A program made the translations under genes and the position numbers. DNA of 37,161 nucleotides from Rhodopseudomonas sp. AAP120 (GTDB lineage Bacteria > Pseudomonadota > Alphaproteobacteria > Rhizobiales > Xanthobacteraceae). Location of the stretch: assembly GCF_001295845.1 (NCBI RefSeq), contig NZ_LJIC01000048.1:1-37161 (forward strand), in the 5' to 3' direction. Positions 17,288-27,652 of the stretch are shown in pieces. How positions within the stretch are numbered: position 1 is the first letter of the stretch; each line of letters starts with the position of its first letter. Below the pieces are notes generated by a model, which did no database searches, was not told the DNA's origin, and saw only the letters and a list, made by a program, of their open reading frames with translations.

Positions 17288-17896
17288 CTAAAACGTCAGC
17301 AATTTCTGGCTACGCAGAAAGGCCAGCAGAGGCAACAGCGGCAGCCCCAGAATGGTGAAGTGATCGCCGTGAATGCCATCGAACAAATGCACGCCGAGGC
17401 CTTCGACCTGATAGCCGCCGACGCTGGAGGTCGCCTTGTCGCCGGCCTGGTCCAGATAGGCGGAGATCTCGTCGTCGGTCAGCGGCCGCATCGTCATCCG
17501 GGCGATCACCACGTCGGAGAACAGCACCAGCCCGTTGCGCACCAACGCGATCGCCGAATGCAACTCGTGGCGACGCCCGGCAAGTTCGCGCAGCTGCCTG
17601 GCGGCCTCGGCGCGATCCGCCGGCTTGTTGAAGCCGCGGGCGCCGAGCGCCAGCGTCTGATCGGCACCCAGCACCAGCCGGCCAGGGTGGCGATTCGACA
17701 CGAAGGCGGCTTTCTCCCGCGCCAGCAGGCCGGCGATCTCGCCCGGCGCCGACAGGCCCGAGGCCTTGGCGATGCCGCGCTCGTCGATGTCGGCCGGAAT
17801 CGCGTCGAACGGAATGCCCGCATTGCCCAGCAGCGCCTGACGCGCGCGGCTCTGCGACGCCAGCACCAGAGGCTGCGGCCCGAGCCACAGCGTCAT
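17288..17896 (-). CDS. maf: Maf-family nucleoside triphosphate pyrophosphatase
   Basis: A 202-residue protein of the Maf/YceF/YhdE group, which hydrolyse modified or canonical NTPs to monophosphates and so clean the nucleotide pool. Motifs: [18 protein letters not shown] near the N-terminus, a central [17 protein letters not shown] with the catalytic Asp, and [29 protein letters not shown] (substrate-loop region, residues about 155-185). It overlaps the upstream PPDK-regulatory gene by ATGA. Which nucleotide it prefers cannot be told from sequence. Confidence 0.95.
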
Positions 17897-18732
17897 TCGG
17901 AAACCCTCTGACGCTGCCGGTCGGCGAGCAGCTTCATGATCGCCGCCGCGGTTTCCTCAATCGACCGGCGTGTGACGTCCAGCAGCGCCCAGCCGTATTT
18001 GGCGCTGAGCTTGCGCGCCAGCAGCACCTCGTCGGTCACCGCCTGCTTGTCGATATACGAATCATTGCCGGAGCCGGCACCGAGGCTGAGCAGTCTGTTC
18101 TGACGTACCTGGATCAGCCGCTCGGGCGAGGCGTGGAGACTGACCACCAGCGGCTTCTTCAAGGTCTCGAGCTGATGCGGAATCGGAATGCCGGCAACCA
18201 GCGGCACGTTGGCGGTGCGGATGCCGCGATTGGCCAGATAGATCGAAGTCGGCGTCTTCGAGGTGCGCGACACGCCGACCAGCACCACGTCGGCCTCTTC
18301 GAGGCCTTCGACGTGCTGGCCGTCGTCATGCATCATCGAATAGTTCAGCGCGTCGATGCGCTGGAAATATTCGGCATTGAGCGTGTGCTGCGCGCCGACC
18401 CGGCCGGTGGTCGAGGCGCCCAGATAGGCTTCGAACAGCTGCATCACCGGACCAATGATCGACAGGCTCGGGCTGTTGATCTCCTGGCACTTGGCCTCGA
18501 GCCGGTTGACCAGTTCGCTCTCGAGTAAAGTGAACAGCACGATGCCGGGCGATTCCTCGATCTCCTGCAGCACGCGGTCGAGCTGCTTCTGGCTGCGCAC
18601 CAGCGGATACACATGTTCGACCGGCGTGACGTTGGCATATTGCGCCGCGACCGCGCGGGACACCGTGATCAGAGTCTCGCCGGTCGAATCCGACACCAGG
18701 TGAAGGTGAAAATAGCTGCCGTCGGTCAGCAT
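17893..18732 (-). CDS. bifunctional PPDK / PEP-synthase regulatory protein (DUF299 family)
   Basis: A 279-residue serine/threonine kinase-phosphorylase that uses ADP to inactivate, and phosphate to reactivate, pyruvate phosphate dikinase or PEP synthase. N-terminus [14 protein letters not shown] and the P-loop-like [11 protein letters not shown] (about residues 153-163) are diagnostic. ATG 18732 is preferred, with AGGG shortly upstream; ATG 18735 is adjacent and equally possible, while 18786 adds unconserved residues. The homologous gene marks one side of oriC in several alphaproteobacteria, including Rickettsia (RP001, as I recall it) and Caulobacter. The first gene of the leftward block, its 5' end faces the candidate origin. 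Confidence 0.95.
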
Positions 18733-19181
18733 CATGACCCTGTGTATCCTGTGAACAGCGGGGCGAAAGCCGCCGGATTGCGGCACCGCGGCCGACGCGG
18801 GCGGGATAACCCGGCGTTTTCTTCACAGGCCTCGGGGTGAGGAAAGTGTCTCGGGATGAAGCCGAGGTTAACGGGTGAATGTGGATTTGTCTCTTGATAA
18901 TGCGCGACCAGGACGGCGCAAACAGCCGACGCCACAAGGCCCGGCGCGCTTGGGACAGCGATCGCCAGGATCTGTGCAAATGTGAATCGCGCACGAACAA
19001 GCCGGGACATCTTCTGTGCCGGCCCTATCCCCTGTCACTACGACTCAAACCCTAAGAATCTATAAATATTGTTTAGAGGGGTGGAGCTTGCGGAAAAGCC
19101 CGTCATCGCGCATTCGAGTAACGCGTGGCGAGAACGGCGGGTTCCGACGAGGCACGCGAATTCCACGCGGTGGGCGCCCTC
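18733..19181. other. candidate chromosomal replication origin (oriC) region
   Basis: This gap of about 450 bases holds no credible gene. It separates two divergent gene blocks in the place where alphaproteobacterial oriC is commonly found. Seen in it: near matches to the DnaA box TTWTNCACA at 18819-18827 (8 of 9), 18880-18888 (reverse, 7 of 9), 18973-18981 (reverse, 8 of 9) and 18981-18989 (reverse, 7 of 9); a 26-base tract at 19051-19076 that is about three-quarters A+T in otherwise GC-rich DNA; and three GANTC (CcrM) sites at 18984, 19042 and 19056. No perfect DnaA box is present, so the call is inference. The same tract could instead serve a hemJ promoter. Confidence 0.5.
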
Positions 19182-19622
19182 ATGTTCGACTGGTCAGATG
19201 TCTATCTCTGGGTGAAGGCGCTGCACGTGATCGCGGTGATCTCGTGGATGGCGGGCATGCTCTACATGCCACGGCTGTTCGTCTATCACTGCTCGGCCGA
19301 GATCGGATCGGTGCAATCCGAGACCTTCAAGGTCATGGAGCGCCGGCTGTATCGCGCCATCATGAACCCGGCCATGATGGTCGCCTGGGTGGCGGGCCTG
19401 GTGATCGCCTGGGAGCAGGGCTATTTCGTCGTCGGCTGGTTTCACGCCAAGCTGGCGGCGGTGGTGCTGATGACCGTGATCCACGTGATGCTGGGCCGCT
19501 ATGTGCGCGATTTCGCCGCAGACCGGAATACGCGATCCCATAAATTCTATCGGATCATCAATGAGATACCGACTTTGCTGATGGTCGGCGCGGTGATCTT
19601 CGTGGTGGTGAAGCCGTTCTGA
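19182..19622 (+). CDS. hemJ: protoporphyrinogen IX oxidase HemJ
   Basis: A 146-residue membrane protein with four membrane segments. HemJ oxidises protoporphyrinogen IX to protoporphyrin IX, the next-to-last step of haem synthesis, in bacteria that lack HemG and HemY. The conserved His of the first helix (His15 in ALHVIAVISWMAGMLY) and the FHAKLAAVVLM segment with the conserved Lys are present. ATG 19182 fits the family N-terminus; a GTG at 19125 is in frame but adds a polar leader. In many relatives hemE and hemH lie next to it; here it stands alone before rho. Confidence 0.93.
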   Translation: MFDWSDVYLWVKALHVIAVISWMAGMLYMPRLFVYHCSAEIGSVQSETFKVMERRLYRAIMNPAMMVAWVAGLVIAWEQGYFVVGWFHAKLAAVVLMTVIHVMLGRYVRDFAADRNTRSHKFYRIINEIPTLLMVGAVIFVVVKPF

Positions 19623-19659: not shown

Positions 19660-19688
19660 TTGCGAAGCCTCCGGCGATTTTCTATAGT
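19660..19688 (+). promoter_or_regulatory. probable housekeeping promoter of rho
   Basis: TTGCGA (19660-19665, 4 of 6 to TTGACA) and TATAGT (19683-19688, 5 of 6 to TATAAT) are 17 bases apart. Transcription would begin near 19695, leaving a leader of about 190 bases before rho. Such a long leader is expected if Rho controls its own gene by early termination. Confidence 0.6.
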
Positions 19689-19888
19689 TTGTCTGTCCCA
19701 CCTAAGCAGGCGAATGTGGTTGCGATCCGGTTGTGTTTTGAGCCGGCCGCCGCATCGGGTTTGAAGCCTCTTCGCACCTTCCTTGCTCAAGACGTCGTCG
19801 ACCTGAAGACCTGCGGACTCCCCGTATTTCCAGTCGCCGCACTTCCGCTGACGATTCTCCCCTCTCGCTTTTCCACAGGACTATCCCA

Positions 19889-22596: not shown

Positions 22597-22612
22597 TGTT
22601 TCACGTGAAACA
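22597..22612. promoter_or_regulatory. parS centromere site 1
   Basis: TGTTTCACGTGAAACA, a perfect 16-bp palindrome identical to the consensus ParB-binding site. It lies 64 bases before the mnmG start. Confidence 0.95.
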
Positions 22613-24552: not shown

Positions 24553-24568
24553 TGTTTCACGTGAAACG
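24553..24568. promoter_or_regulatory. parS centromere site 2
   Basis: TGTTTCACGTGAAACG, the parS consensus with one change at the last base. It begins 3 bases after the mnmG stop codon and 31 bases before site 3. Confidence 0.9.
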
Positions 24569-24583
24569 CATCCGGCCTCGCCG

Positions 24584-24599
24584 TGTTTCACGTGAAACA
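24584..24599. promoter_or_regulatory. parS centromere site 3
   Basis: A second perfect TGTTTCACGTGAAACA, 31 bases after site 2, about three helical turns centre to centre, so two ParB dimers would bind the same face of the DNA. Confidence 0.95.
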
Positions 24600-24971: not shown

Positions 24972-25682
24972 ATGGCCACCCGCACTCAATCAACGATGCC
25001 TTCTACCGGGTCGGATCATGCCGACAAGGCCGCCGCGCTCGACCTCACTCCTGTTTCACGTGAAACAGAGCAGAGGCTGGAGGCCTATCTCGATCTGCTG
25101 CGGCAGTGGCAGGCCAAGACCAACCTCGTCGCCCCATCGACCCTGCCCCAGCTGTGGACCCGGCATGTCGCCGACTCCCTGCAGCTTCTGACCATCGCCC
25201 CAGAGGCGCGGCGCTGGCTCGACTTTGGCAGCGGCGGCGGCTTCCCGGGCATCGTGCTCGCTTGTGCCATGGCCGAGGTCGGGGGTCATGTCACGCTGGT
25301 CGAGCGGATCGCCAAGAAGGCCGCGTTTCTGCGCGAGGCGCTCCGTGTGACCGGCTCGCCAGGCACAGTGATCCTCGCGGACATCGGGGATAATGTGGAT
25401 AGATTTCCGAAGGCGCTGGATTGCATCACCGCGCGCGCGGTGGCTCCGCTACACCAGCTCATCGGTTTCGCCAAACCCCTGATGGCCCCCGGCACGCGAG
25501 CGCTGTTTTTGAAGGGCCAAGATGTAGAGGCGGAATTGACGGAAGCTACCAAGTATTGGAAGATCGAGCCGCGTCTCCACGCGAGCCTGACAGGCGGTCA
25601 GGGTTGGGTGGTCGACCTCGATCGGATCGACCGACAGGTTCTCACCGCCGTCAGCAAAGAATCCGCGCATGACCATCATTGA
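24972..25682 (+). CDS. rsmG: 16S rRNA (guanine527-N7)-methyltransferase RsmG (GidB)
   Basis: A 236-residue S-adenosylmethionine methyltransferase that makes m7G527 in 16S rRNA. SAM-binding motif WLDFGSGGGFPGIVLA (about residues 77-92), LVERIAKKAAFLRE and ARAVAPLHQLIGFAKPLM are typical. ATG 24972 follows AGGAG at 24956-24960; a shorter start at 24996 is possible, since the first 25 residues are variable. Codons for PVSRETE (about 27-33) contain a full parS palindrome. The 3' end overlaps parA by 14 bases, so the methyltransferase and the segregation genes are translationally linked. Confidence 0.96.
   Translation: MATRTQSTMPSTGSDHADKAAALDLTPVSRETEQRLEAYLDLLRQWQAKTNLVAPSTLPQLWTRHVADSLQLLTIAPEARRWLDFGSGGGFPGIVLACAMAEVGGHVTLVERIAKKAAFLREALRVTGSPGTVILADIGDNVDRFPKALDCITARAVAPLHQLIGFAKPLMAPGTRALFLKGQDVEAELTEATKYWKIEPRLHASLTGGQGWVVDLDRIDRQVLTAVSKESAHDHH
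25052..25067. promoter_or_regulatory. parS centromere site 4, inside the rsmG coding sequence
   Basis: Perfect TGTTTCACGTGAAACA within rsmG, read as V-S-R-E-T in the gene's frame. It is 617 bases upstream of parA. Confidence 0.95.
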
Positions 25683-26523
25683 TGAAATCTATCAAGGGGA
25701 TAGGGCCGTGACCGAGCCCGGACGTCCGCGCATCATCGCGCTCGCCAACCAGAAGGGCGGGGTGGGGAAAACCACCACCGCCATCAATCTCGGCACCGCG
25801 CTGGCCGCGATCGGCGAGCGGGTGCTGATCGTCGATCTCGATCCGCAGGGCAACGCCTCGACCGGTCTCGGCATCGATCGCCGCGACCGCAACACCTCGA
25901 CCTACGACGTGCTGGCCGGCGAGGCGCCGCTGCGCGACGCCGTGGTGGCGACCGCAGTGCCGCGGCTGCATATCGCCGCTTCGACCATGGACCTGTCCGG
26001 CCTCGAGCTCGAACTCGGCCATTCGCGCGACCGCGCGTTCCGGCTGCGCGACGCGATCGGGATGCTCAACAAGGACATCGATCCGCCGCTCGACTACACC
26101 TACGTGCTGATCGACTGCCCGCCGTCGCTGAACCTGCTCACCGTGAACGCGATGGCGGCCGCCGATGCGATCCTGGTGCCGCTGCAGTGCGAGTTCTTCG
26201 CGCTCGAAGGTCTGTCGCAGCTGCTGCAGACAGTCGAGCAGGTGCGCTCGACGCTGAACCCGGAGCTCACCATCCACGGCATCGTGCTGACGATGTTCGA
26301 CAGCCGTAACAATCTGTCGAGCCAGGTGGTCGCCGACGTGCGCCAGTTCATGGGCAAGAAGGTCTACGACACCATGATCCCGCGCAACGTCCGCATCTCG
26401 GAAGCGCCGAGCTACGGCAAGCCGGTGCTGGTCTACGATCTGAAATGCGTCGGCAGCGAAGCCTATCTCAAGCTCGCCACCGAAGTGATCCAGCGCGAAC
26501 GCGAACTCCGCACGACGCATTGA
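25669..26523 (+). CDS. parA: chromosome partitioning ATPase ParA
   Basis: A 284-residue Walker-type ATPase of the ParA/Soj group that moves ParB-parS complexes after replication. The deviant Walker A NQKGGVGKTTT is at about residues 27-37, with VDLDPQGNASTGLG (A' motif), VLIDCPPSLNLLTVNAM (Walker B) and YDTMIPRNVRISEAPSYGKPV. The start at 25669 overlaps rsmG by 14 bases; a GTG at 25708 (VTEPGRP) would give a shorter protein without overlap. Immediately followed by a palindromic element and parB. Confidence 0.97.
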   Translation: MTIIDEIYQGDRAVTEPGRPRIIALANQKGGVGKTTTAINLGTALAAIGERVLIVDLDPQGNASTGLGIDRRDRNTSTYDVLAGEAPLRDAVVATAVPRLHIAASTMDLSGLELELGHSRDRAFRLRDAIGMLNKDIDPPLDYTYVLIDCPPSLNLLTVNAMAAADAILVPLQCEFFALEGLSQLLQTVEQVRSTLNPELTIHGIVLTMFDSRNNLSSQVVADVRQFMGKKVYDTMIPRNVRISEAPSYGKPVLVYDLKCVGSEAYLKLATEVIQRERELRTTH

Positions 26524-26695: not shown

Positions 26696-26761
26696 GCAAT
26701 CTAACTAACAAGTCTCGTTTCATCTGTGCGGAGTAGCGACGTGAATCCAAGGGAGCTGGCG

Positions 26762-27652
26762 ATGGCCGACGAGCACCGTTCGCGACTGGGGCGGGGGCTG
26801 GCGAGCCTGATCGGAGATGTCGGCGGCGAGGCCGCGCATGTCGAACGGCCGCGCGGTCAGCGCAAGGTGCCGATTGAATTCATCAAGGCCAATCCGCGCA
26901 ACCCGCGCCGCAACTTCACCGACGCCGAACTGAGCGAGCTGTCGGATTCGATCAAGCAGCACGGCGTGATCCAGCCGATCGTGGTGCGGCCCGTGAAGGG
27001 CGCCAACGATCGCTTCGAGATCATCGCCGGCGAGCGGCGCTGGCGCGCGGCGCAGCGCGCCGGGCTGCACGAAGTGCCGATCGTGCCGGTCGAGGTGTCG
27101 GACGCACTCGCGCTTGAAATCGCCATCGTCGAGAACGTGCAGCGCGAGGATCTCAATCCGCTCGAAGAGGCGCTCGGCTATCACGCGCTCGCCAACGACT
27201 TCAAGCGCAGCCAGGACGAGATCGCCAAGATCGTCGGCAAGAGCCGCAGCCACGTCGCCAACATGATGCGGCTGACCAAGCTGCCCGAGGACGTGCAGGC
27301 GCTGATCGCCGCCGGCGATCTCAGCATGGGCCACGCCCGCGCGCTGATCGGCGTGCCCGATCCGTCGGCCGCGGCCAAGCGCATCGTCGCCGAAGGCCTC
27401 AACGTCCGGCAGACCGAAGCGCTCGCGCACGAAGAGGGCGTGCCCGAACGCAAGCCGCAGAAGCCGCGCGCCGCCGCGAGCGCCAAGCCGGCGAAGGACA
27501 CCGATACGATCGCACTGGAAAAGCGCGTCTCCGACGCGCTCGGCATGAAGCTGACGATCGACGATCACGACGGCGCCGGCACAGTCCAGATCCGCTACGC
27601 CGATCTCGACCAGCTCGACGACATCATCCGCAGGCTCGAAGCGGGCGGTTAG
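26762..27652 (+). CDS. parB: chromosome partitioning protein ParB
   Basis: A 296-residue centromere-binding CTPase. The N-terminal RLGRGLASLIGD binds ParA; the CTP-binding ParB/Srx domain has NPRNPRRNF, HGVIQPIVVRP and GERRWRAAQRAG; the central helix-turn-helix that reads parS is about SQDEIAKIVGKSRSHVANMMRL; and the C-terminal dimerisation segment ends LDQLDDIIRRLEAGG. ATG 26762 has GGGAG 6 bases upstream; an in-frame GTG at 26726 is rejected. Its substrate sites are the four parS sequences upstream of parA. Confidence 0.98.
   Translation: MADEHRSRLGRGLASLIGDVGGEAAHVERPRGQRKVPIEFIKANPRNPRRNFTDAELSELSDSIKQHGVIQPIVVRPVKGANDRFEIIAGERRWRAAQRAGLHEVPIVPVEVSDALALEIAIVENVQREDLNPLEEALGYHALANDFKRSQDEIAKIVGKSRSHVANMMRLTKLPEDVQALIAAGDLSMGHARALIGVPDPSAAAKRIVAEGLNVRQTEALAHEEGVPERKPQKPRAAASAKPAKDTDTIALEKRVSDALGMKLTIDDHDGAGTVQIRYADLDQLDDIIRRLEAGG

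Follow-up and report, generated by a model that had tools for sequence, protein, structure and literature searches.

The gap between the gene for a PPDK/PEP synthase regulator and hemJ is very likely oriC, the origin of chromosome replication, in this Rhodopseudomonas, as a switch in GC skew, the location of parS sites, a conserved architecture of DnaA-like boxes and orthology to a published putative origin together indicate. The window, a stretch of 37,161 nucleotides, is one entire contig (C172) of a genome of 6.16 Mb assembled into 228 contigs, and its nearest named relatives are Rhodopseudomonas. We computed the position of the gap, its box and AT content and its conservation, as well as the skew switch and the clustering of parS in relatives. 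A sequence-only reading of the window had proposed that the gap is the origin or a remnant of it. The former is supported by all of these lines, with dnaA fitting the skew of sister genomes far worse, while the latter finds no backing, since the gap looks like a conserved element whose main blocks are kept in 86 gaps.

The same reading had described a gene-free divergent gap with genes directed away from it, and the annotation agrees on both points (Table 1). The regulator, maf, coaE and dnaQ run leftward, with secB beyond dnaQ, and hemJ, rho, mnmE, mnmG, rsmG, parA and parB run rightward; for hemJ, an alternative GTG start at 19125 is possible. Across the gap from the regulator we find hemJ in 102 of the 104 loci that have this regulator, some of these loci being the same genome counted twice. 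The two exceptions are L104, which has hemE there, and L019, which stops at a contig end. No match to Rfam at gathering scores was found in the whole window.

Table 1. Features of the candidate origin region, in coordinates of the window. DnaA-like matches are to TTWTNCACA; fractions refer to 86 distinct related gaps, and "CACA core" denotes an intact core with ≤2 mismatches.
Feature	Position	Strand	Remarks
PPDK/PEP synthase regulator (COG1806/RP001 type)	17893-18735	-	left flank; NCBIfam NF003742, 337.5 bits
Candidate oriC gap	18733-19181	none	449 bases
DnaA-like GGATACACA, 7 of 9	18741-18749	-	CACA core in 44/86
DnaA-like CTGTTCACA, 7 of 9	18750-18758	-	CACA core in 81/86
DnaA-like TTCTTCACA, 8 of 9	18819-18827	+	best conserved: 83/86 at ≤1 mismatch; CACA core in 84/86
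DnaA-like AAATCCACA, 7 of 9	18880-18888	-	inside conserved block ATGTGGATTTGTCTCTTGATAA; CACA core in 57/86
8-of-9 match ATTTGCACA	18973-18981	-	not conserved: 6/86 at one mismatch; CACA core in 12/86
DnaA-like CGATTCACA, 7 of 9	18981-18989	-	CACA core in 71/86; commonest form TTGTTCACA, 38/86
Conserved AT-rich element, two GANTC sites	19041-19083	none	proposed unwinding element
8-of-9 match TTTTCCGCA	19089-19097	-	9/86 at one mismatch, 63/86 at two; CACA core in 1/86
hemJ	19182-19622	+	right flank; NCBIfam TIGR00701
parS (exact)	22597-22612	none	
parS (one mismatch)	24553-24568	none	
parS (exact)	24584-24599	none	
parS (exact)	25052-25067	none	
parA	25669-26523	+	Pfam AAA_31
parB	26726-27652	+	Pfam ParB_N, HTH_ParB, ParB_C

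A putative origin of Bradyrhizobium has been placed between bll0636 and blr0637 in USDA110 and at 629,186-629,573 in USDA6, in passages that term both flanking genes hypothetical (PMC3927601); a skew shift near it, at 650 kb, has also been published, and the origin passage for DOA9 repeats the same placement (PMC4339197). In a genome of 9,207,384 bases, the length of USDA6, we find that these coordinates fall between a PPDK regulator (match from 629,580) and hemJ. The stretch aligns with the gap of the window and has the same flanking genes. Judged from this alignment, the gap corresponds by orthology to the origin proposed for Bradyrhizobium japonicum USDA6, and its kind is therefore already known. 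The Bradyrhizobium origin differs in belonging to another genus and in its individual boxes, which are unlike those found here; as here, it is a prediction. A comparison of the DOA9 coordinates with gene lengths in 23 Bradyrhizobium loci produced no exact match, and among the papers listed we recognised none with experimental origin mapping in Rhodopseudomonas or Bradyrhizobium. We note that the numbering of contig 1 in both G344 and G382 (genus g25, Bradyrhizobium) begins a few bases from the start of the PPDK regulator, i.e., at this gap.

The origin of Caulobacter, Cori, lies between hemE and COG1806, and this type of origin and its criteria are described in PMC1914354. Like Cori as described there, the gap is flanked by COG1806 on one side, measures a few hundred bases and contains several DnaA boxes and an AT-rich stretch. 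Unlike Cori, it has no hemE opposite, and it carries neither a TTAA-N7-TTAA CtrA site nor the IHF consensus.

The missing hemE had been explained as a replacement by hemJ, which the gene order of relatives contradicts: those that keep hemE show the arrangement regulator, gap, hemE, hemJ. An order-level search of 199 genomes gave 168 with a regulator match, and in the 30 best-scoring of these 168 loci, hemE follows the gap in 23 cases and hemJ in 7 (the window included). Within the family, hemE adjoins the regulator in 52 of 80 regulator genomes by coordinates and in one more (G028) across contig ends, i.e., in 53 of the 78 with a hemE match; it lies elsewhere in 25 of the 80, and 2 of the 80 gave no hemE match. 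In the window's own genome, hemE is on another contig. When 30 hemE loci were inspected, seven included the regulator, and hemJ followed hemE in all seven. The gap ahead of hemE in G057 carries the main blocks of the window gap, among them ATGTGGATTTGTCTCTTGATAA (locus L104), and in G266 (genus g13) a gap with the AT-rich GANTC block is followed directly by hemJ. Because of these blocks and the hemE-hemJ order, we conclude from comparative sequence that hemE formerly stood between the putative origin and hemJ and left from there, and that hemJ is no replacement.

The 25 genomes with hemE elsewhere comprise nine genera (22 genomes) and genus g13 (3 genomes), and the loss of hemE from the origin probably happened twice in the family. 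In the three g13 genomes (G027, G266 and G288), the loss of origin-linked hemE appears to be independent, in a second lineage. We also considered the distant hemE as a foreign replacement and dropped the idea, as its identity to relatives declines gradually over the family.

Matches to the DnaA box consensus TTWTNCACA are enriched in the gap. At one mismatch there are three (18819 on the forward strand, 18973 and 19089 on the reverse), compared with a mean of 0.35 in dinucleotide shuffles, 0 of 500 of which reach three; at ≤2 mismatches there are ten, with a shuffle mean of 3.92 and 6 of 500 shuffles reaching ten. The sequence-only reading had listed two 8-of-9 and two 7-of-9 matches; that count was too low, as three and seven are present. 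Across 86 distinct gaps (102 gaps minus identical ones, the window's included), the one-mismatch mean is 2.28 versus 0.56 after shuffling, although these gaps are not independent because relatives share ancestry. The one exact match of the window, TTTTCCACA, lies outside the gap, at 19869 before rho.

The boxes are weak, and their one-mismatch density is not unique to the gap. In G004, the gap is one of eight 450-base windows in 440 kb that share the highest count, two one-mismatch matches, and the stretches sampled in G003, G011 and G012 contain ties as well; we therefore dropped one-mismatch density as a marker of the origin. Sites with an intact CACA core and ≤2 mismatches, a definition chosen after the alignment was seen, single out the gap more clearly. 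By this measure the gap is the densest 450 bases in the window (7, one of them inside the regulator gene, versus 2 in the next), the single maximum in the 440 kb of G004 (5 versus 4 in the next best) and, in G003, G011 and G012, the single maximum of the one 20 kb stretch tested around the gap of each genome.

Alignment of the 86 gaps reveals conserved blocks rather than conservation of the whole gap, and conservation differs from site to site (Table 1). In relatives, the site at 19089 most commonly reads ATATCCGCA (33/86), which lacks the CACA core; since it is kept in 63/86 at two mismatches, most often in this form, it may represent a different type of weak box. As a control we used the hemJ-rho gap of 80 of those 86 loci, in which 38% of columns reach 90% identity versus 20% in the oriC gap. 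Overall conservation was consequently dropped as an origin marker, the hemJ-rho gap being the more conserved of the two. That gap itself has a strongly conserved stretch (19660-19790) that includes a promoter-like GATTTTCTATA and, ahead of rho, a long conserved part, with 100 of 266 columns at ≥90% identity; the stretch is possibly a structured rho leader.

These comparisons also bear on the reading of the gap as a promoter region serving the divergent PPDK regulator and hemJ genes, with regulatory blocks and incidental boxes. Divergent genes require promoters there, hemJ begins 42-141 bases after the AT-rich block, according to which start codon is used, and the hemJ-rho gap is more conserved yet is not taken for an origin. 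However, the main blocks stand ahead of hemE in G057 and the AT-rich GANTC block ahead of hemJ in G266, and they therefore did not follow the downstream gene. CACA-core sites moreover average 9.9 per kb in the 86 gaps versus 3.4 per kb in the 80 hemJ-rho gaps, and promoters leave both the skew and parS unexplained. We thus regard a promoter region alone as very improbable, and note that promoters may overlap the origin.

The second feature expected of a bacterial origin, an AT-rich unwinding element, has a putative counterpart in the conserved block at the right of the gap. The tract 19051-19076 is 77% A+T, as first reported, and 35 of the 37,121 40-base windows are at least as AT-rich as 19044-19083. 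Three GANTC sites within 77 bases had been noted as well and are found at 18984, 19042 and 19056; the latter two are conserved (78/86 and 85/86 gaps), the first in 7/86. Methylation of GANTC might play some role here. Over the window as a whole (1-37161), GANTC is strongly avoided, with 71 sites found versus 192 expected from dinucleotide shuffles. The strict CtrA consensus TTAA-N7-TTAA is absent from the window gap and present in 1 of the 86 related gaps, and a search with the strict IHF consensus found no site in the window gap and sites in 2 of the 86.

GC skew was sampled in relatives because the window's own genome is in 228 contigs, and the skew within the 37 kb window is too noisy for use. 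The alternative named at the outset was a skew minimum beside dnaA. In same-genus genomes, dnaA lies about 325 (G004), 332 (G011), 349 (G003), 350 (G002), 377 (G014) and 440 kb (G012) from the gap, on the hemJ side in five of six and on the opposite side in G003. There, dnaA is at 4940867 and the gap at 4592364, a similar distance on the other side, as an inversion around the origin would produce. Skew was sampled, rather than computed completely, in four closed sister genomes (G004, G003, G011 and G012) and fitted in 328 pooled bins of 5 kb within 600 kb of the gap. The pooled changepoint lies 5 kb from the gap, with 5-10 kb within 2 log units and the gap itself 2.6 log units below the best; these figures overstate certainty because neighbouring bins are not independent.

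An origin at dnaA, as in many bacteria, would make the gap a merely conserved intergenic region. Three of the five single-contig same-genus genomes (G004, G011 and G012) are indeed closed sister genomes numbered from dnaA, and the window genome's own dnaA region has up to 3 CACA-core sites per 450 bases. The stretches upstream of dnaA in three sister genomes, in contrast, hold ≤2 such sites per 450 bases, and the pooled skew fits are 22 log units worse at 325 kb to the hemJ side (the dnaA site in two genomes) and 23 log units worse at 350 kb to the other side (the dnaA site in a third). The pooled sign switch is thus at the gap and not at dnaA, and we consider an origin at dnaA extremely unlikely.

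The individual genomes vary in clarity. Left and right skew within 400 kb differ with p = 5e-5 in G004, 3e-4 in G003 and 1e-6 in G011; G012 has little skew overall, and its switch is not significant alone (p = 0.28). In G004, all stretches sampled from 3.2 to 5.2 Mb have negative skew, as do most of those between zero and 340 kb, and all of those from 340 kb to 2.9 Mb have positive skew. Its cumulative skew over 0-440 kb has its minimum at 333 kb, with the lowest points at 323-336 kb. The changepoint from G004 alone falls at 395 kb, positions from 370 to 605 kb being within 2 log units, and the gap, at 325 kb, fits 3.4 units less well; we interpret this as skew being weak on either side of the origin. 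In G011, where the gap is at 333 kb, skew turns between 320 and 360 kb, and two negative stretches follow beyond, at 360 and 700 kb. In G003, where the gap lies at 4.592 Mb and dnaA at 4.941 Mb, the turn is gradual: up to 4.70 Mb skew is mostly negative or near zero, a single stretch at 4.60 Mb being positive, and from 4.72 Mb on it is positive. Sites of the FtsK-type GGGNAGGG are too few near the gap to assess strand bias.

The parS sites point to the same region. At ≤1 mismatch there are 3-6 per genome in nine genomes, all found within 13 kb of the gap and none elsewhere in those nine genomes. In seven Rhodopseudomonas genomes, the window's own among them, they lie 3-7 kb from the gap; in G057 the distance is about 9 kb, and in G028 it is 10-13 kb.

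These same sites underlie a competing placement. Ori-Finder, in its account of the Bradyrhizobiaceae, gives TGTTTCACG as the family DnaA box with oriC beside gidA (PMC2275245), a prediction followed for Oligotropha (PMC3091675). The origin would then lie beside mnmG (gidA), at the cluster of the palindrome TGTTTCACGTGAAACA. This prediction shares with ours the 10 kb of chromosome and the skew switch, and at a bin size of 5 kb skew cannot distinguish the gap from the parS/mnmG region, which lies at a distance of 3-6 kb. It differs in being placed beside gidA, with a DnaA box that is half of parS. In fact, the same 16 bases are given as the parS of Hyphomonas neptunium, a ParB-binding site (PMC7022226), parA and parB adjoin the palindrome, and the mnmE-mnmG and mnmG-rsmG gaps of the window hold no TTWTNCACA at ≤1 mismatch. 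We consequently judge an origin beside mnmG unlikely, with only a slim chance of being correct. Because the palindrome adjoins parAB in the window and matches the Hyphomonas parS, our analysis suggests that a segregation site was mistaken for a start site when TGTTTCACG was proposed as a DnaA box.

For the gap as origin, we infer the following course. DnaA would bind a set of boxes between 18741 and 18989, in the left and middle of the gap, most of them weak and non-consensus, and the AT-rich, GANTC-bearing element would open. On firing, the left fork would pass through the regulator, maf, coaE and dnaQ, and the right fork through hemJ, rho, mnmE, mnmG, rsmG and parAB. ParB and ParA would segregate the new origins via the parS sites 3-6 kb to the right. 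Inversions symmetric about the origin would leave dnaA on the opposite side, as in G003.

In sum, the gap very probably represents an alphaproteobacterial origin, ordinary and well supported, from whose side hemE has been lost. A broader proposal, which we offer tentatively and hold to be somewhat short of an even chance, is that the Bradyrhizobium-Rhodopseudomonas origin has weak non-consensus boxes (commonly TTCTTCACA, GGATTCACA, TTGTTCACA and AAATCCACA), that its start control is unlike that of Caulobacter, given these weak boxes without CtrA or IHF consensus sites, and perhaps acts via the two conserved GANTC sites, and that family predictions based on TGTTTCACG mark the centromere and not the start. 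The gap would provide a precise origin candidate for a genus in which three of five single-contig genomes start their numbering at dnaA, about 325-440 kb off. By-products are a list of conserved boxes and a likely correction of the parS-derived DnaA box. Within the family, the origin element would have kept its place when the adjacent hemE departed, apparently on two occasions.
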